Of a stretch of 55,699 nt of DNA, positions 16,181 through 24,750 are shown piece by piece. Every line of letters starts with the position of its first letter. Position 1 is the first letter of the stretch. The translations under genes and the position numbers were made by a program. Source of the DNA: Anaerolineae bacterium (GTDB lineage Bacteria; Chloroflexota; Anaerolineae; Caldilineales; Caldilineaceae); contig JAUIHI010000042.1 in NCBI GenBank assembly GCA_030432295.1, forward strand, positions 1-55,699. The letters are read 5' to 3'. Under the pieces are notes generated by a model that had not been told where the DNA came from, searched no databases, and worked only from the letters and a program-made list of their open reading frames with translations.

Positions 16181-16210
16181 TTGACATCCGCGCCCGACCA
16201 ATGCTATATT
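16181..16210 (+). promoter_or_regulatory. Promoter of the mntR-like gene
   Basis: -35 TTGACA (16181-16186), spacer 18, extended -10 TGC-TATATT (16202-16210). Transcription should start at about 16216-16218, exactly at the ATG (16217), which implies a leaderless mRNA. Confidence 0.8.
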
Positions 16211-16226
16211 TTAGCCATGACTAAAA
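16209..16226. promoter_or_regulatory. Putative MntR operator, copy 1
   Basis: Inverted repeat TTTTAG-CCATGA-CTAAAA overlapping the -10 element and the start codon of the mntR-like gene. The same TTTTAG-N6-CTAAA pattern recurs at 16974-16991 before the metal ABC operon. Position and recurrence support an autoregulatory operator. Confidence 0.78.
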
Positions 16227-16918
16227 ACTATGTGCACGCAACCGAAAACCCCTTGACTCCGGCCCACGAGGACTACCTGAAGGCCATCTATCTGCTGGAA
16301 GCCAATGGCGAGCCGGTGAGTAATTCCGCTCTGGCCCAGCATATGGGTTTTGCACCGGCCTCGGCCACAAATATGGTCAAGAAGCTGGCCGAGCTCCATC
16401 TGGTCACCCACGCTCCCTACCGGGGGGTGGAATTGACCGACCTGGGCCGCCAGGTGGCGCTGGAGGTCCTGCGCCACCACCGGCTGATTGAGCTTTTCCT
16501 CCACGAGACGCTGGATATGTCCTGGGACCGGGTTCATGAGGAGGCGGATAAGCTGGAGCACGTCATCAGCGAGGCGATGGAGGACGCGATGGCCGCGGTG
16601 CTGGGCAACCCCACCGTCGATCCTCACGGCGATCCCATCCCCAGCAAAGAGGGCCACGTGGACAAAACACCCGGCTCCCCGCTCTCGGTTGCAGCCATTG
16701 GGGAGCCGATGCGTCTGGTTCGGGTTCTCACCCAAGACCCGGACCGGCTCTGCTATCTGGGCGGTCTGGGCCTCTACCCGGACGCGGAAGTCGTTCTGCG
16801 CGAGCGTGCGCCCTTCCAGGGACCGCTGTTGGTGGAGGTCAATGGCAAGCCCCATGCCCTGGCCTTCGAGATGGCCGAATGTTTACAAGTCGTTGTGGAG
16901 GAACCGTTGCCAGTCTGA
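16217..16918 (+). CDS. mntR: MntR/DtxR family metal-dependent repressor
   Basis: A 233-residue metalloregulator: N-terminal winged helix (about 14-75, EDYLKAIYLLEANGEPVSNS, then a recognition helix near PASATNMVKKL), dimerisation/metal domain and C-terminal SH3-like domain (about 155-230). Ligand positions aligned to DtxR/MntR are D19, H88, E92, H107, D111, E114 and H115. Asp111 replaces the Cys of the iron-sensing DtxR type, and Asp19 matches the MntR pattern, so Mn2+ sensing is favoured over Fe2+. It should repress itself and the downstream uptake operon when metal is replete. ATG 16217 has no Shine-Dalgarno and coincides with the predicted transcription start. Confidence 0.93.
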   Translation: MTKNYVHATENPLTPAHEDYLKAIYLLEANGEPVSNSALAQHMGFAPASATNMVKKLAELHLVTHAPYRGVELTDLGRQVALEVLRHHRLIELFLHETLDMSWDRVHEEADKLEHVISEAMEDAMAAVLGNPTVDPHGDPIPSKEGHVDKTPGSPLSVAAIGEPMRLVRVLTQDPDRLCYLGGLGLYPDAEVVLRERAPFQGPLLVEVNGKPHALAFEMAECLQVVVEEPLPV

Positions 16919-16973
16919 TTTCCACATTGCGTGGCTTCCGGGCGATCTGCTATGGATTTTTTTTGCACCCGTG

Positions 16974-16991
16974 TTTTAGGAATAGCTAAAC
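16974..16991. promoter_or_regulatory. Putative MntR operator, copy 2
   Basis: Inverted repeat TTTTAG-GAATAG-CTAAAC, 50 bases before the substrate-binding protein gene, directly downstream of a possible -35 (TTGCAC 16963-16968). It has the same half-sites and the same 6-base spacing as the copy at 16209. Confidence 0.75.
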
Positions 16992-17041
16992 ATTTTTTTG
17001 GCAACTACTACTCATTGATTGATGTACAGGAAAGAAAACAG

Positions 17042-18016
17042 ATGAACCACAAAATCGAAAACCGTACAACAAAATCGCCCTTTCCGCACCGGATTGCGCT
17101 TCTACTGCTGGCTGCACTGCTCCTGCTGGTGGCCGGGTGTAGCCCCGCAGGCCAGGCCGCAGCCAACGCTGACGGCAAAATCCGGGTGGTCACCACCATC
17201 GGAATGATCACCGACGTAGCCCGCAATGTGGGCGGTGAGCACGTGGAAGTGACCGGGCTGATGGGCGCAGGTGTAGACCCCCATCTCTACAAGGCCACGG
17301 AAAGTGATGTAAATAGACTCCTCAACGCCCAGATTGTCTTCTACAACGGCCTATTTTTGGAAGCCCGCATGGAAGATGTCTTTGAACAGATGGCAGAATC
17401 CAAACCGACTGTCGCGGTGGGCGAAAGCGTCCCCGTGGCAGATCGTCTGGCCAGCCCCCAATACGCCGAACATTTCGACCCCCACATCTGGATGGATGTA
17501 AAAAACTGGATGCGGGTGGTGGAAAAGATTCGGGCTGAACTGAGCGCCTTTGACCCGGACAACGCCGCCGACTATCAAGCCAACGCCGACGCCTATCTGG
17601 CCCAGTTGCAGGAATTGGAAGAGTGGGTGCAGGCCCAGGTGGTCACTGTGCCCACCGAGCAGCGTCTGCTCGTCACCGCCCACGACGCCTTCCACTACTT
17701 CGCCAAAGGCTACGATTTCGCAGTCTTTGCCCCCCAGGGCATCAGCACCGAATCGGAAGCGGGGGTGGATGACATCCGCCGCACGATTGATCTGGTCGTC
17801 GAGCGGGACATCCCGGCCATCTTTGTGGAAAGCAGCGTGCCGCCGGATGTGGTGGAGGCGATTGTGGAAGGGGCGAAAGCCAGAGGCCACGACATCCGCA
17901 TCGGCGGCTCCCTCTTCTCCGATGCGATGGGCGAGGATGGCACGCCCGAGGGCACGTATATCGGGATGATTCGACACAACGTGCAGACCGTTACCAGCGC
18001 GCTGCGCGGGGAGTAG
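17042..18016 (+). CDS. TroA-type Mn/Zn ABC transporter substrate-binding lipoprotein
   Basis: A 324-residue lipoprotein that captures metal outside the membrane for the importer encoded next. The lipobox LLLVAGC places lipidated Cys33 after a hydrophobic signal. Cluster A-I ligands are His81 ([13 protein letters not shown]), His148 (HFDPHIWMD), His214 ([10 protein letters not shown]) and Asp294 (SLFSDAMG). This His3-Asp set is as in TroA/ZnuA, whereas PsaA has Glu as third ligand. There is no His-rich loop of the kind typical of ZnuA, so Mn or Zn are both possible. Start ATG 17042 has AGGAAAG 7 bases upstream. First gene of an operon with 4-base or overlapping junctions, under operator copy 2. 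Confidence 0.95.
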
Positions 18017-18020
18017 AACT

Positions 18021-18815
18021 ATGCCAGGCCAACGCAACGGCAGCCCACCCATCCACATCGAAGACCTCACCGTCGCCTACCGGGAGGAACCCGTCCTCTG
18101 GGACGTGGACCTGGACGTGCCCGAAGGCACGCTGATGGCAATTGTGGGACCAAACGGCGCAGGAAAATCCACTCTCATCAAGACAATTCTCGGTCTGATC
18201 CAGCCCGCCGCGGGCCAGGTGCGCATCTACGACAGGTCCTACACCGAGCAGCGCTCCCTCGTGGCCTACGTTCCCCAGCGGGGCAGCGTGGACTGGGACT
18301 TCCCCACCAACGCGCTGGATGTGGTGATGATGGGGCGATACGGCCATCTGGGCTGGCTGAAACGGCCCGGCCCCACCGAGCGCAAGTTGGCCCTGGACGC
18401 CCTCACCAAAGTGGGAATGCAGGAGTACGCCGGTCGCCAGATCAGCCAACTCTCCGGCGGCCAGCAACAACGGGTCTTTCTGGCCCGGGCCCTGGTGCAG
18501 GACGCCCAGATTTATCTGATGGACGAACCCTTTCAGGGGGTGGACGCCACCACCGAAAAGGCGATTATCACCGTCCTGCGGGAGCTGCGGGCCGCGGGGC
18601 GCACAGTCGTCGTCGTCCATCACGACCTGGAAACTGTGCCCGAATATTTCGACCACGTGCTGCTGCTCAATGTTCGGGCAATCGCTACAGGACCGGTCGC
18701 AGAGATATTCACCCCGGCCAATCTGCGCCGGACCTACGGCGGCCATATGGATATGCTCCTGGCCCGCGACGGCGAGTTGACCCCAGGCGGAGGCAGCAAT
18801 GGACGCCATTCTTGA
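18021..18815 (+). CDS. Metal ABC transporter ATP-binding protein
   Basis: A 264-residue ATPase powering the TroA-type importer. It shows Walker [10 protein letters not shown] (about 43-51), Q-loop [13 protein letters not shown] signature LSGGQQQR, Walker [12 protein letters not shown] and the switch His in VVVHHDLE, so it should be active. It starts 4 bases after the binding-protein gene and overlaps the permease gene by 17 bases, a tightly coupled operon. The motif order and [10 protein letters not shown] sequence are those of the Mn/Zn/Fe chelate subfamily. Confidence 0.96.
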
Positions 18816-20007
18816 GTTCGTCCAGCTGATCTTTACCGACTACACCCTGCGCACAGTCACCCTCGGCGCGATGATTCTGGGGCTGGTCAGCGGCCTGCTG
18901 GGCAGCTTTGCCGTCCTGCGCAAACAGAGCCTGCTGGGCGACGCGATGAGCCACGCGGCCCTGCCCGGCGTCGTCATCGCCTTCATCCTCACCGGTTCCA
19001 AAGCGCCACTGGTGCTGATGCTGGGCGCGTTGGCCGCAGGCTGGCTGGGCGCGCTCCTTGTCCAACTGGTCACCGAGCAGACCCGCATCAAACAGGACAG
19101 CGCACTGGGGATTGTACTGGCTGTCTTCTTCGGCTTCGGCCTGGTCCTGCTCACGTGGGTGCAGCGCCAGGGCAGCGCCAACCAGAGCGGGCTGGACACC
19201 TTTCTCTTTGGCCGGGCCGCCGCGCTGGTGATGAGCGATGTCTGGGCGATGGCCGGGGTGGGGGGCGCGGGTCTGCTGTTGGTCCTCCTCTTTTGGAAGG
19301 AGTTCAAACTGCTCAGCTTCGACCCGGACTTTGCCGCTACTCTTGGCTTTCCGGTGGGATTGCTGAATGTGGCCCTGACGACGCTGATTGTGGTGGCGGT
19401 GGTCATCGGCCTGCAAACCGTCGGCGTTGTGCTGATGAGCGCGATGATTGTGGCCCCCGCGGCCGCGGCCCGCCAGTGGACCGATCGCCTGGACCGGATG
19501 GTGCTGCTGGCCGCGCTCTTCGGTGCGCTGGCAGGGATCAGCGGCGCTCTCATCAGCAGCCTGAGCCGGGGGCTGCCCACCGGCCCGACGGTTGTACTCT
19601 GTGTCAGTACCCTCGTTGGCTTTTCGCTGCTCTTTGCGCCCAACCGGGGGCTGGTGGGCGCGTGGCTGCGTCAACGGCACAATCGACGCCAATTGCGCCG
19701 GGCCGCGGTGCTGGAGACGCTCTATCAGTTGGCTATCTCCCACGGGGATGCCGCAGAAGTTGCTTCTGCCCACGCCCACCAGTTGGGCGCGCTGCTGGCA
19801 GCCATGCCCGGTGTGGATGTGCGCCGCACCCTGGACGTGCTGGAAAGCGAAGGGCTGGCCCGACCCAGCACTGGAGACCGGTGGGCATTGACCCCCGCCG
19901 GCGCAGATCAGGCCCGCCAATCCCTGGCCCGCTTCACCCGCCACAGCCCAGACGAACTGCCCATCCGCCCCATCGCCCTCACATCCGCGGGGGAGGTGAT
20001 CAAATGA
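18799..20007 (+). CDS. Metal ABC permease with C-terminal winged-helix domain
   Basis: A 402-residue protein. Residues about 1-285 are a complete TroC/ZnuB-type permease with multiple hydrophobic helices ([58 protein letters not shown]). Residues about 300-385 are a cytoplasmic extension with the layout of a winged helix: [13 protein letters not shown], then [20 protein letters not shown] and [11 protein letters not shown]. Typical permeases end near 280 residues, so the extension is real added sequence. It lacks DtxR metal ligands. It may act as a regulatory domain; DNA binding by it is inference. It overlaps both neighbours (17 and 4 bases). Confidence 0.92.
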
Positions 20008-21107
20008 CACCCCAGGCAGAAATTCAACTGATTGCCAGTATTGTGGCCGTGGCCTGTGCCCTGCCCGGCGTCTTCCTGATTTTGCGCCGGGTGGCCCTGA
20101 TGAGTGACGCCATCAGTCACAGCATCTTGCTGGGCATTGCGGTCGGCTTTTTATTTACTGGCAGCACCAGCCACCCCCTGCTCGTAGCCCTGGCCACGGC
20201 CAGCGGCATTCTGACTGTCTCACTGGTGGAAGGACTGATCAACACCCGACGGGTGAAGGAGGACGCAGCGATTGGGCTGGTCTTCCCCGTGCTTTTCAGT
20301 ATCGGCGTCATCCTCATCAGCCGCTATGCAGGGGATGTCCACCTGGACGTGGACGCGGTGCTGCTGGGCGAACTGGCCTTTGCGCCCTTCAACCGAATGG
20401 CGTTCTTTGGCCTGAATCTGCCCCAGGGCGTATGGGTGATGGGGGGGATTCTGCTGCTCAATCTGCTCCTCATCGGGCTATTCTATAAAGAGCTGAAGCT
20501 GGCAACCTTCGACGCCGGGCTGGCCGCGGCCCTGGGCTTTTCGCCTGTGCTTCTCCACTACGGGCTGATGACTGTCGTCTCGGTGACAGCCGTGGGCGCA
20601 TTCGATCACGTGGGGTCGATTTTGGTGGTGGCGCTAATGATTGCGCCCCCGGCCTCGGCCTATCTGCTCACCAATTCCCTGCCCCGGATGCTGGGGCTGA
20701 GTGCGCTCTACGGGGTGGCAGCGGCCATCGGCGGCTATTGGCTGGCCCGAACGCTGGACGCCAATATCGCCGGCGCGATGGCGACAATGACCGGCGTCTT
20801 CTTTCTGCTGACCCTACTCTTTGCGCCGGAGCAGGGGCTGATCGCCCGAGCCCTGCAACGCCAGCGCCGCCGCCAGCGCTTTGCTGTGGAGATGCTGCTG
20901 GTCCATCTGAGCCGCCACGAGAACGAGCCGGAGGCAGGCACAGAGAACTCCCTGGCCCATCTGGTGGAGGAATTGAAATGGCAGCCGGACTTCGCCCAGT
21001 CCACCGTGCGCAGCGCCCAGGAAGAAGTCTTTGTAGAACGGCAGAACGGGCTGTTACTATTGACTGAAGAGGGTCGGCAGGTGGCAAGTCGAGTGCTGCA
21101 ACGCTGA
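20004..21107 (+). CDS. Second metal ABC permease, also with C-terminal wHTH-like tail
   Basis: A 367-residue permease. The membrane part (about 1-285) starts [20 protein letters not shown] and has the family pattern LMSDAISHSILLGIAVGFLF. A soluble tail of about 80 residues follows (RFAVEMLLVHLSRHE, then FAQSTVRSAQEEVFVERQNG, LLLLTEEGRQVA), again with winged-helix spacing. The start overlaps the previous stop (ATGA), ensuring coupling. With the first permease it would form a heterodimeric translocation channel. TroC/TroD-type importers likewise use two permeases, but the tails are unusual. Confidence 0.92.
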   Translation: MTPQAEIQLIASIVAVACALPGVFLILRRVALMSDAISHSILLGIAVGFLFTGSTSHPLLVALATASGILTVSLVEGLINTRRVKEDAAIGLVFPVLFSIGVILISRYAGDVHLDVDAVLLGELAFAPFNRMAFFGLNLPQGVWVMGGILLLNLLLIGLFYKELKLATFDAGLAAALGFSPVLLHYGLMTVVSVTAVGAFDHVGSILVVALMIAPPASAYLLTNSLPRMLGLSALYGVAAAIGGYWLARTLDANIAGAMATMTGVFFLLTLLFAPEQGLIARALQRQRRRQRFAVEMLLVHLSRHENEPEAGTENSLAHLVEELKWQPDFAQSTVRSAQEEVFVERQNGLLLLTEEGRQVASRVLQR

Positions 21108-21150: not shown

Positions 21151-22170
21151 ATGGAGAGTATCTTTTCTCAACCCCTATTCTGGGTCTTCGTTTTCGCACT
21201 GCTATTTGCTGCCGCATTCTGGCCGGGCCGGGGACCCTTCTGGCGGCGTTTGCAGAAGAACCAGCGCCAGCAACGGGTGCTGATCGAAGACGGCCTGAAG
21301 CACGTCTACACATTCCGCCAGCGGGAGATTCCCGTCACCGTCGAGTCTCTGGCCGGCGCAGTAGAACTCAACCGCTCCCAGGCCAGCGAACTGATCGCAG
21401 AAATGGAAGAGTCCGCCCTGCTCCACTACGGCGAAAGCGGCCTGGAACTGACGCCCAAAGGCGAAGCCCTGGCTCTGCACGTCGTCCGTGCCCATCGCCT
21501 GTGGGAGACCCACCTGGCCGACACAACCGGTCTGGCCCCCACGGATTGGCACAGTCAGGCCGACCGCAAGGAACACAGTCTCTCCCCCGCCGAGGTAGAC
21601 GCGCTGGCCGCCAGCCTGGGCCATCCGGTCTTCGACCCCCACGGCGACCCTATCCCCACCGAGAAAGGTGTGGATGCGCCGCCCAGTTTTGCTCTCACCG
21701 AAGCCAAACCAAACCAGACCCTGCGCATCGTCCATCTGGAAGACGAGCCACCGGTGGTCTTTGCCCAACTGGTGGCCGAGGGGCTACATCCGGGCATGGC
21801 GATTCAATTGATTGAAAAGACCGATCAATTTCTGCACTTTGTGGGCGAAGGCGAAGAGCGTCGTCTGGCCCCCCAACTGGCCGCCAATGTGAGCGTGCGT
21901 CCCGTCCGCAACCACAATGGAGTGATGCTGGGCGGCGCGCAGCCTTTGAACAGCCTGCGCGTGGGCGAAGAGGCCAAAGTTGTGGCTGTCTCCCGGGCCT
22001 GCCGCGGGCCGGAACGCCGACGGCTGATGGACCTGGGCATCCTCCCCGGCGCGGCTATCGAAGTCGCCATGCCCAGTCCAATGAATGACCCGGTAGCCTA
22101 CCGGGTGCGGGATACACTGATTGCATTGCGTAACGATCAGGCGCAGATGATTTTGATTGAGAGAACCTGA
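21151..22170 (+). CDS. Membrane-anchored MntR-like sensor fused to FeoA
   Basis: A 339-residue protein in four parts: one N-terminal membrane helix (about 8-24), a DtxR/MntR winged helix (about 40-105), a metal domain with all ligands conserved (D47, H115, E119, H134, D138, E141, H142), an SH3-like domain, and a C-terminal FeoA domain (about 262-338, RRRLMDLGILPGAAIEVAMP). The PVFDPHGDPIP segment matches the soluble MntR in this window. A DNA-binding metalloregulator tethered to the membrane is unusual; it could sense metal beside the transporters or gate FeoB through its FeoA domain. It lies between the ABC operon (44 bases) and feoB. AAGGAG lies 7 bases before the ATG. Confidence 0.9.
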   Translation: MESIFSQPLFWVFVFALLFAAAFWPGRGPFWRRLQKNQRQQRVLIEDGLKHVYTFRQREIPVTVESLAGAVELNRSQASELIAEMEESALLHYGESGLELTPKGEALALHVVRAHRLWETHLADTTGLAPTDWHSQADRKEHSLSPAEVDALAASLGHPVFDPHGDPIPTEKGVDAPPSFALTEAKPNQTLRIVHLEDEPPVVFAQLVAEGLHPGMAIQLIEKTDQFLHFVGEGEERRLAPQLAANVSVRPVRNHNGVMLGGAQPLNSLRVGEEAKVVAVSRACRGPERRRLMDLGILPGAAIEVAMPSPMNDPVAYRVRDTLIALRNDQAQMILIERT

Positions 22171-22180
22171 CGCTCAAAGA

Positions 22181-22315
22181 CCAGCGCCGGTTGAGTAGCC
22201 CGGAGTCTGCGGAGGGCGTATCGAAATCAAGCGGGTGTACGTAGAACTGTTCGTAAACCCGTTCGCTTGATTTCGATACGCCTCGAAGACTCGGCACTCA
22301 ATCAGCGTTCACTGG
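22181..22315. repeat. GGTTGAGTAG-family palindromic element, copy 1
   Basis: A 135-base imperfect palindrome bounded by CCAG/CTGG. The left arm has GGTTGAGTAG and GGCGTATCGAAATCAAGCG; the right arm has CGCTTGATTTCGATACGCC and ACTCAATCAGCG. Related copies lie at 30250-30309 (half) and 50477-50632 (full). There is no coding capacity. It lies between the FeoA fusion and feoB. Confidence 0.88.
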
Positions 22316-22393
22316 AGCGGATTCTACAACCCGTGGCCTCGCCACCCTACGCAATACGCAGTGCCTTGCCAGACACAAAAAGGAATGACTCTT

Positions 22394-23269
22394 ATGGCCG
22401 ACAAAGTACAGATCGAACCCATCCCCCTCACTTCTACCCAGGGGGGCCACGCGGCCGCAGGCTGCGACGGCTGCGCTGTCCACAACGCGGGCGCGCTGTT
22501 GAAGCTGGGCGTGGATATGCAAAACTGGGATTACGTCGTCGCCCTGGCCGGTAATCCCAACACCGGCAAAAGCACCGTCTTCAACGCCCTGACCGGGCTG
22601 CGCCAACACACGGGCAACTGGCCGGGCAAGACTGTCGCCCGCGCCGAGGGCGGCTTTGTCTACAGCGACAAACGCTACAAATTGGTGGACCTGCCGGGGA
22701 CCTATTCCCTCCTCGCCACCAGCCTGGACGAGGAGATCGCCCGCGACTTCATCCTCTTCGGCCAGCCCGATGTGACAATTATTGTCGTGGACGCAACCCG
22801 GCTGGAACGCAATCTGAATCTGGTGCTGCAAACCCTGGAAATCACCGACCGAGCCGTCGTCTGTCTGAATCTGATGGACGAAGCCCGCCGCCACAAACTG
22901 ACCATCGATGACCGTCGCCTGGCCCGGGATTTGGGCGTGCCCGTCGTGCCCACCGCGGCCCGTCAAGGCGAAGGGCTGCAAGACCTGCTCCAGGCCGTCC
23001 ACGAAGTCGCCACCGGCCAGGTGATCGGCAAACCCTACCGGATGCAGAAGGAGCCCAAGGCCATCAAAGGCGCGCTGGACCGGCTGGTGGCTCAACTGAC
23101 CACCGCCTTCCCCGGACTGCCCAACGCGCGCTGGGTGGCCCTGCGTCTGCTGGACGGGGACGAGAGTATTGTGCAGGCCGTGCGCAGCGGTGAATTGGGC
23201 CAACTGATCAGCGGCACGCCGGATGTGGCTCAACGCCAATTGACACACCAGATGGAGGTGGTCCTATGA
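22394..23269 (+). CDS. feoB: FeoB GTPase domain protein (N-terminal half of split FeoB)
   Basis: A 291-residue soluble half of the ferrous iron transporter FeoB. The G1 loop is GNPNTGKST (53-61), followed by the NWPGKT switch region, G3 [10 protein letters not shown] and G4 NLMDEA, then part of the helical GDI domain. An N-terminal extension of about 40 residues carries a CDGC pair (Cys24, Cys27) not found in ordinary FeoB. ATG 22394 is preferred, with AAGGA about 9 bases upstream. The stop overlaps the start of the membrane half by 4 bases (ATGA). The G-protein may regulate Fe2+ (possibly Mn2+) flux through the separate membrane subunit. Confidence 0.92.
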
Positions 23270-24750
23270 CCGTTGATGTTTCCAGCGCGGGGATGCCCAG
23301 CGGCCTTTCCCCCCGCCAACCCCAACCGAACCCGCCCGTCAACGCGGACTCGATTCTCGCCAGCGTAGACGCCTTCCGCCGGGAGATGACCACCGACATC
23401 CACGAAGAGTGGGTCGAGGCGATCTACGGCGAAGCCAGTCGCCTGGCCGAGCGCAGCGTCACCCGCCCGGACCAGAAGGCCCGCTTCGATCTGGACCGCA
23501 CCATCGACCGAGCGGTCACCAGCCGCTGGCTGGGCTTCCCAATTATGCTGATTCTCTTTACTTTCATCCTCTGGCTGACAATTTCTGGGGCCAATGTGCC
23601 GTCGCAGATGATTGCCAACGTACTGCTGGGAATGGTACACCCCTGGCTGAAAGGCGTAGCCGCGGCCATCAGTATGCCCTGGTGGCTGGACGGTCTGCTC
23701 ATCGACGGCGTCTATCTGGCGACGGCCTGGGTGGTCAGTGTGATGCTGCCGCCTATGGCCATCTTCTTCCCTCTCTTTACGCTTCTGGAAGATCTGGGCT
23801 ATCTGCCCCGGGTCGCCTTCAATCTGGACGCCATTTTCCGCAAGGCGGGCGCGCACGGCAAACAGTCGATGTCAATGATGATGGGCTTCGGCTGCAACGC
23901 GGCGGGGGTCATCGCTACCCGCATCATCGACAGCCCGCGCGAGCGGCTGATCGCCATCATAACCAACAACTTCGCCCTCTGCAACGGACGCTGGCCCACG
24001 CAGATTTTGATTGCCACGATTTTCGTCGGCGGGCTGGTTCCGGCCCAGTTGGCCGGGCTGATCTCCGCCAGCGCAGTGGTGGGCATCGCCCTGCTCGGCG
24101 TGCTGCTGACTTTTGTGGTCTCCTGGGCGCTCTCCCGCACAGTGCTGAAGGGCGAAGTCTCCACCTTCAGTCTGGAACTACCCCCTTACCGCCCGCCCCG
24201 GGTTTTGCAGACAATCTACACATCCCTCATCGACCGCACGATTTACGTCCTGTGGCGGGCAATTGTCTTCGCCGCCCCCGCGGGCGCGGTCATCTGGCTG
24301 GTCGCCAACATACACATCGGCGGCCCAAGCATCGCCGAGTGGATGATCCAGTGGATGAATCCCTTTGGCCTGCTGCTCGGCTTGAACGGTGTGATTCTGC
24401 TTGCCTATATTGTGGCCATCCCAGCCAATGAAATCGTCATTCCCACAATTCTGATGCTCACCGTTCTCACCGCGGGCGTGTCCGGCGCAGGTGAAGGCGC
24501 GGGGGTGATGTTCGATCCGGGATCGACGAATGCCACTGCCGCGCTCTTCACGGCTGGCGGCTGGACGCTGCTGACCGCTGTCAATCTGATGCTCTTCAGT
24601 CTGATGCACAACCCGTGCAGCACGACGATTTATACGATCTACAAAGAGACGGGCAGCGTCAAATGGACGGCCCTAGCGTCGCTGATGCCCGTGGCGATGG
24701 GCTTTGTGGTAACATTCACTGTAGCCCAGGTCTGGCGGCTATTTGCGTAG
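23266..24750 (+). CDS. feoB: FeoB membrane domain protein (C-terminal half of split FeoB)
   Basis: A 494-residue permease half of FeoB. After a Pro-rich N-terminus of about 25 residues, the rest of the GDI helices appear ([20 protein letters not shown]), then [19 protein letters not shown] and the membrane core. Gate motifs are [12 protein letters not shown] and, near the C-terminus, [16 protein letters not shown], both with the conserved Cys. About ten hydrophobic segments are visible. The break relative to one-piece FeoB falls within the GDI domain. The new ATG, the 4-base coupling overlap and the added N-terminal sequence make this a genuine gene split, not a frameshift. Confidence 0.93.

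Follow-up and report, generated by a model that had tools for sequence, protein, structure and literature searches.

The gene at 21151–22170 of the window, by which we mean the whole 55,699-nucleotide stretch of DNA that was analysed, encodes a 339-residue protein in which a single N-terminal helix anchors a DtxR/MntR core that is followed by two FeoA domains, and which represents a real and widespread membrane variant within the DtxR/FeoA kind, one that is apparently undescribed. By computation, we found a membrane anchor, near-invariant metal residues, a lost DNA-reading signature, linkage to one FeoB subtype, and homology of the anchor and core to the tails of permease–DtxR fusions. We propose, with a probability of about 60%, that this tethered protein is a membrane-anchored Mn/Fe sensor that acts as FeoA-type subunit for a single subtype of FeoB and controls import post-translationally. 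The sequence-only reading had suspected an undescribed membrane metalloregulator here, and the open-access papers indeed yielded no description of a membrane form of a DtxR/FeoA protein; a soluble relative, PgMntR (PG1044) of Porphyromonas gingivalis, has already been studied.

The tethered gene lies in a cluster that runs from a soluble mntR-like gene through a lipoprotein, an ABC ATPase and two ABC-3 permeases to the tethered gene itself and a feoB carried by two open reading frames. Its neighbours are as follows.

16217–16918, forward strand: soluble MntR-like regulator that opens the cluster and has an intact recognition helix (Pfam Fe_dep_repress, 59 bits), preceded at 16181–16210 by a promoter-like site, TTGACA-18-TATATT
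16961–18016, forward strand: ZnuA/MntC-type metal-binding lipoprotein (domain and family matches)
18021–18815, forward strand: metal ABC transporter ATPase (best NCBIfam score with the manganese MntA model, below its cut-off)
18799–20007, forward strand: ABC-3 permease 1, with a C-terminal winged-helix-like tail at about 19650–19950 (alignment with DtxR-fused permeases; predicted tail fold)
19992–21107, forward strand: ABC-3 permease 2, with a shorter winged-helix-like tail (Pfam; alignment with DtxR-fused permeases)
22385–23269, forward strand: feoB part 1, a CxxC N-terminus and GTPase with GNPNTGKST (Pfam FeoB_N; family-wide motif; start codon at 22385 or 22394)
23266–24750, forward strand: feoB part 2, the membrane domain with gate motif LCNGRWPTQ (Pfam Gate and FeoB_C; motif)

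Manganese is favoured only tentatively as the metal of the cluster, since the best NCBIfam models of the ATPase are manganese-type and all score below their cut-offs. The GTPase and membrane frames of feoB overlap in ATGA, and a sequencing frameshift is an unlikely cause of the split, which occurs in 49 loci while feoB is intact in 22. The gap of about 215–225 nt between the tethered gene and feoB contains a perfect 19-nt inverted repeat at 22215–22282. We rejected this repeat as an operon switch because it belongs to a REP-like palindrome family whose related copies occupy about 40 genomic sites.

The tethered protein itself is laid out as follows.

21151–22170, forward strand: whole gene, 339 aa (open reading frame; full-length homologues, 79–88% in the genus and 32–54% in other families and phyla)
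21172–21216, forward strand: transmembrane helix, residues 8–22, predicted N-out/C-in (AlphaFold2 helix, conserved in homologues, charge bias; matches only the last transmembrane helix of ABC-3 permeases)
21217–21234, forward strand: FWPGRG turn, residues 23–28, common to the end of ABC-3 permeases (FAPxxG)
21283–21453, forward strand: degenerate winged helix, residues 45–101, with the former recognition helix at 75–87 (Pfam Fe_dep_repress, PF01325, 14.9 bits, below the cut-off of 26; conservation and signature tests)
21451–21660, forward strand: metal-binding and dimerisation domain, residues 101–170, with H115, E119, H134, D138, E141, H142, D162 and H164 (Pfam Fe_dep_repr_C, PF02742, 83.2 bits against a cut-off of 27; ligand conservation)
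21697–21906, forward strand: SH3/FeoA-like domain 1, residues 183–252, with H195, E197, D198 and E199 (FeoA HMM, 26.2 bits; residues 39–252 match whole MntR structures)
21943–22164, forward strand: FeoA domain 2, residues 265–338 (FeoA HMM, 72.9 bits against a cut-off of 23; sequence matches to FeoA structures)

The AlphaFold2 model, built from an 82-row alignment, has a mean pLDDT of 93.8 and shows a helix at residues 8–22, a turn, and an unbroken helix at 29–57 that forms the first helix of the winged helix, together with two SH3-like barrels. Residues 44–252 superimpose on Mn-bound MntR (5zr6) with a Z score of 25.1 and an rmsd of 1.4 over 205 residues, and the winged-helix fold is still predicted despite its low Pfam score. 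The tethered protein thus has a DtxR fold with its metal domain in place and without a conserved recognition helix. The SH3 and FeoA domains directly ahead of feoB, read earlier from the letters, are recovered here as two FeoA stretches with feoB as the next gene.

The single N-terminal anchor that had also been proposed is borne out. Of the 82 aligned homologue rows, 77 have a hydrophobic helix ahead of the DtxR core, so we regard the anchor as conserved and reject a chance hydrophobic N-terminus. The mean net charge changes from −0.43 before the helix to +3.58 after it, from which an N-out/C-in orientation is predicted. Five proteins (L101, L102, L103, L106 and L129) lack the helix and keep the FeoB link, and tethering is therefore inessential in some members. 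One of these, the Bacteroidales protein L129, nests inside the tethered clade and is followed by the same FeoB subtype (L247), which makes loss of the helix within the clade plausible.

A scan of GTDB genomes with the patterns DPHGDPIP and RAHRLWE gave more than 590 relatives, of which we studied the best 80. Among these 80, 77 loci encode the same protein. They are spread over at least 11 phyla, comprising Chloroflexota, Bacteroidota, Ignavibacteriota, Calditrichota, Balneolota, Gemmatimonadota, Acidobacteriota, Verrucomicrobiota, Planctomycetota, Myxococcota and Chlorobiota. In this best-80 set feoB lies directly downstream on the same strand in all 74 loci with enough downstream sequence; the remaining three of the 77 stop at a contig edge, where one (L108) has the start of a feoB fragment. 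The downstream FeoBs carry the gate motif CNGR[WFY]P in 71 of 71 cases and a CxxC ahead of the GTPase in 66 of 73, and most have GNPNTGKST, while several canonical FeoBs of relatives have SC[SG]ARLPV at the gate position. The FeoB of the window (22385–24750) is apparently of a distinct subtype, encoded by two genes, with the CxxC and with LCNGRWPTQ instead of SCSARLPV.

The linkage also holds in 61 relatives that were found without sequence patterns and searched genome-wide. The tethered protein occurs in 15 of them, all with this FeoB subtype; the subtype occurs in 16, being missing from 45 of the 46 that lack the tethered protein (Fisher p 2e-13). The clade is broad and, judged by gene order and co-occurrence, obligately linked to a distinct FeoB subtype. 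The sole exception, G055, has the FeoB subtype and no tethered gene, and a stand-alone FeoA of 92 aa stands directly before its FeoB. This lone FeoA shares 54% identity with the tethered protein's FeoA domain 2 and, by its place before the same FeoB subtype, is our best hint that domain 2 acts as the FeoA of FeoB.

With a canonical FeoA domain 2 and a similar FeoA on its own in G055, the tethered protein might be a plain FeoA subunit of FeoB in which the DtxR part serves as a structural scaffold that senses nothing. We consider this unlikely, because the metal ligands are near-invariant over at least 11 phyla while the adjoining winged helix drifts. All seven residues picked out from the sequence at the start (D47, H115, E119, H134, D138, E141 and H142) are present. 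H134, E141 and H142 are found in 78 of 78 aligned rows, H195 and D198 in 77, and D47 in 74, and position 138 is mostly E or D. Conservation of H115, E119, D162 and H164 arises in part from selection by the scan patterns, which leave the other ligands unaffected. MtsR has a Mn site at the junction of its dimerisation and FeoA-like domains (PMC9253540), and the invariant H195–E199 block of FeoA domain 1 fits this location.

The opposite pattern is seen on the DNA-reading side. In 38 loci that have both a tethered and a soluble protein, mean identity of the metal domain is 0.57 for the tethered and 0.54 for the soluble kind, and that of the recognition helix is 0.25 and 0.43, respectively. The recognition-helix to metal-domain ratio is 0.43 [0.39–0.49] for tethered versus 0.80 [0.73–0.87] for soluble proteins, with no overlap in 1000 bootstraps. 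The metal domain of the tethered proteins is as conserved as in soluble regulators, while the winged helix drifts. The recognition signature [TS]xMx[KRQ][KRQT][LM] is present in 38 of 40 soluble neighbours, in none of 77 tethered proteins and in none of seven permease-fused ones; as it was derived from the soluble set, its absence shows loss of that surface and is no proof against DNA contact. A wing motif follows the same trend (35 of 40, 3 of 77 and 0 of 7), and the winged-helix body carries on average a net charge of −1.3 in tethered versus +1.8 in soluble proteins.

These observations bear on the two roles that had been offered for the protein, DNA binding from the membrane and gating of FeoB, of which gating fits far better. 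A transcription factor that sensed metal at the importer and repressed promoters from the membrane, like the one-component membrane regulators, would be in keeping with the winged-helix fold that is still predicted, and PgMntR, which is soluble and related to it by its twin-FeoA domain order, gives an in vitro shift with DNA of its own promoter (PMC4805248). By analogy with that report, related proteins may bind DNA. We nevertheless regard this role as improbable for the tethered protein: the signature, wing motif and charge all differ from those of the soluble neighbours, and a signature-bearing soluble DtxR regulator is already present in the cluster of the window and lies directly upstream in 30 of the 77 loci. 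Moreover, the binding of PgMntR to DNA persisted in EDTA, was seen at 700 nM protein, and required the basic second FeoA domain (PMC4805248). A database would probably name the protein a 'DtxR-family transcriptional regulator', a role that the evidence on DNA contact would argue against.

PgMntR is the closest known protein to the tethered family, and like the tethered protein it has a DtxR core with two C-terminal FeoA domains and a feoB in its operon. That FeoB (FB2) is a Mn transporter (PMC4805248). The putative ligands of PgMntR (D19, H85, E89, H104, C108, E111, H112, D132, H134, H166, D169 and E170) have counterparts in the tethered protein in the same order and at near-identical spacing (D47, H115, E119, H134, D138, E141, H142, D162, H164, H195, D198 and E199). 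PgMntR was reported to be a soluble repressor of transcription whose DNA-binding domain spans residues 13–65 and in which D19 is a ligand, and it binds Mn(II) and Fe(II) tightly, with an overall Mn Kd of 2e-11 M and three Mn per monomer (PMC4805248). Unlike the tethered protein it is soluble, and the positions of D19 and the domain leave no room for a transmembrane helix before the core. We judged relatedness by domain order and ligands, and the stand-in for PgMntR in our tree is L129, which is similar and likewise lacks the helix. The tethered family suggests that PgMntR deserves a second look.

Other known proteins share parts of the design. MntR, DtxR and IdeR (5zr6, 1fx7) have the winged helix, the metal and dimerisation domain and the SH3-like domain, with Z scores up to 25, but they are soluble DNA-binding proteins with neither a transmembrane helix nor a second FeoA domain, whereas the tethered protein is without the recognition signature. 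FeoA proteins, including the FeoA domain of FeoAB fusions (7r7b, PMC8980893), share FeoA domain 2, which scores far above the Pfam cut-off, and a gene position ahead of feoB; a stand-alone FeoA, however, is small and soluble and has neither metal sensor nor anchor.

A tethered sensor joined to FeoA bears on how FeoB import is shut off. In the Bacteroides fragilis FeoAB, FeoA contacts the GTPase domain (NFeoB) in the GTP state, a contact that slows GTP hydrolysis about 50-fold, and the authors proposed that an 'unknown downstream signal' dislodges FeoA when iron suffices (PMC8980893). We propose that in the tethered family this signal is built in, such that metal on the DtxR core would reposition FeoA domain 2 on FeoB. 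The N-terminal helix would hold the dimeric DtxR/MntR core at the membrane's inner face, where cytoplasmic Mn2+ or Fe2+ would bind D47, D138, E141 and H142, and a putative second site would be formed by H115, E119, D162 and H164 together with the first FeoA domain (H195–E199). Binding would change the way in which both FeoA domains are positioned, after which FeoA domain 2 would engage or leave the FeoB GTPase domain, so that import is set after translation. Both metal binding by the tethered protein and its contact with FeoB are inferred in this scheme, as is the direction of control, in which most likely high metal would remove FeoA and stop import. The covalent joining of FeoA to a membrane metal sensor makes the dislodging idea testable.

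The conserved metal ligands, invariant at the cytoplasmic face, would also fit a membrane-tethered metal acceptor or chaperone, to which FeoB would hand the incoming ion for onward transfer, and PgMntR does bind three Mn per monomer, but such a role is doubtful because the sites are of the DtxR sensor type, the reported Mn affinity of PgMntR would suit release poorly, and there is no known acceptor partner.

The membrane-anchored sensor that we favour may have a counterpart in another importer. In several Bacteroidota, ABC-3 permeases end in a DtxR domain, through which the transporter may have a metal sensor of its own. These fusions share with the tethered protein the last transmembrane helix, the FAPxxG turn, the long helix, the winged helix and the metal domain; they differ in being joined to an ABC permease, in showing no FeoB link that we could see, and in the absence of the second FeoA domain. 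In the examples at L113 (6146–7696), L115 (248–1750) and L203–L207 the metal ligands are conserved and the DNA-reading signature is absent. Profiles of the tethered and DtxR-fused permease proteins align over 238 columns, from inside the transmembrane helix through the metal domain (E 2e-41), and the permease matches also begin inside the helix in the whole-genome HMM search.

An HMM of the anchor (residues 1–45) was searched against 10,638 open reading frames of the window and the fetched loci (1.47 Mb), of which 56 are permeases, most of them fetched on purpose. Apart from the family and other DtxR hits, the 19 best matches are all ABC-3 permeases, each at its last transmembrane helix, and other reading frames score at most 11.0 bits. 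The two ABC-3 permeases of the window end in shortened, winged-helix-like cytosolic tails, which can be aligned to the first part of the permease-fused DtxR domains. For permease 1 the tail is predicted as helix, turn, long helix and winged helix (pLDDT 84.8), with weak winged-helix matches in the PDB (best E 0.007). As the anchor and DtxR core are collinear with the tail of the permease–DtxR fusions, the anchor looks like the last helix of a permease.

The tree separates the tethered, the permease-fused and the soluble proteins into three groups (supports 100/97, 98/89 and 100/94, respectively), the permease group falling between the other two. The tree is unrooted; with a root on the soluble side, the tethered and permease-fused kinds would be sisters. 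We tentatively suggest, at somewhat short of an even chance, that a DNA-free, membrane-fixed DtxR core arose in two related settings as a direct feedback gate on an importer, as the tail of an ABC-3 Mn/Zn permease and as a subunit of the FeoB subtype, the latter through gene fission that kept the last helix and gained two FeoA domains.

Two other arrangements of FeoA domains were seen among the loci. At L248 (1795–3780) and L004 (genome contig C40), a Cys-rich protein with a C-terminal FeoA domain comes after a second FeoB in the same genome. In other Chloroflexota (L150, L151 and L153), soluble twin-FeoA DtxR proteins retain the recognition helix, and their metal site is of the Cys type; in L151 and L153 their genes precede feoB.
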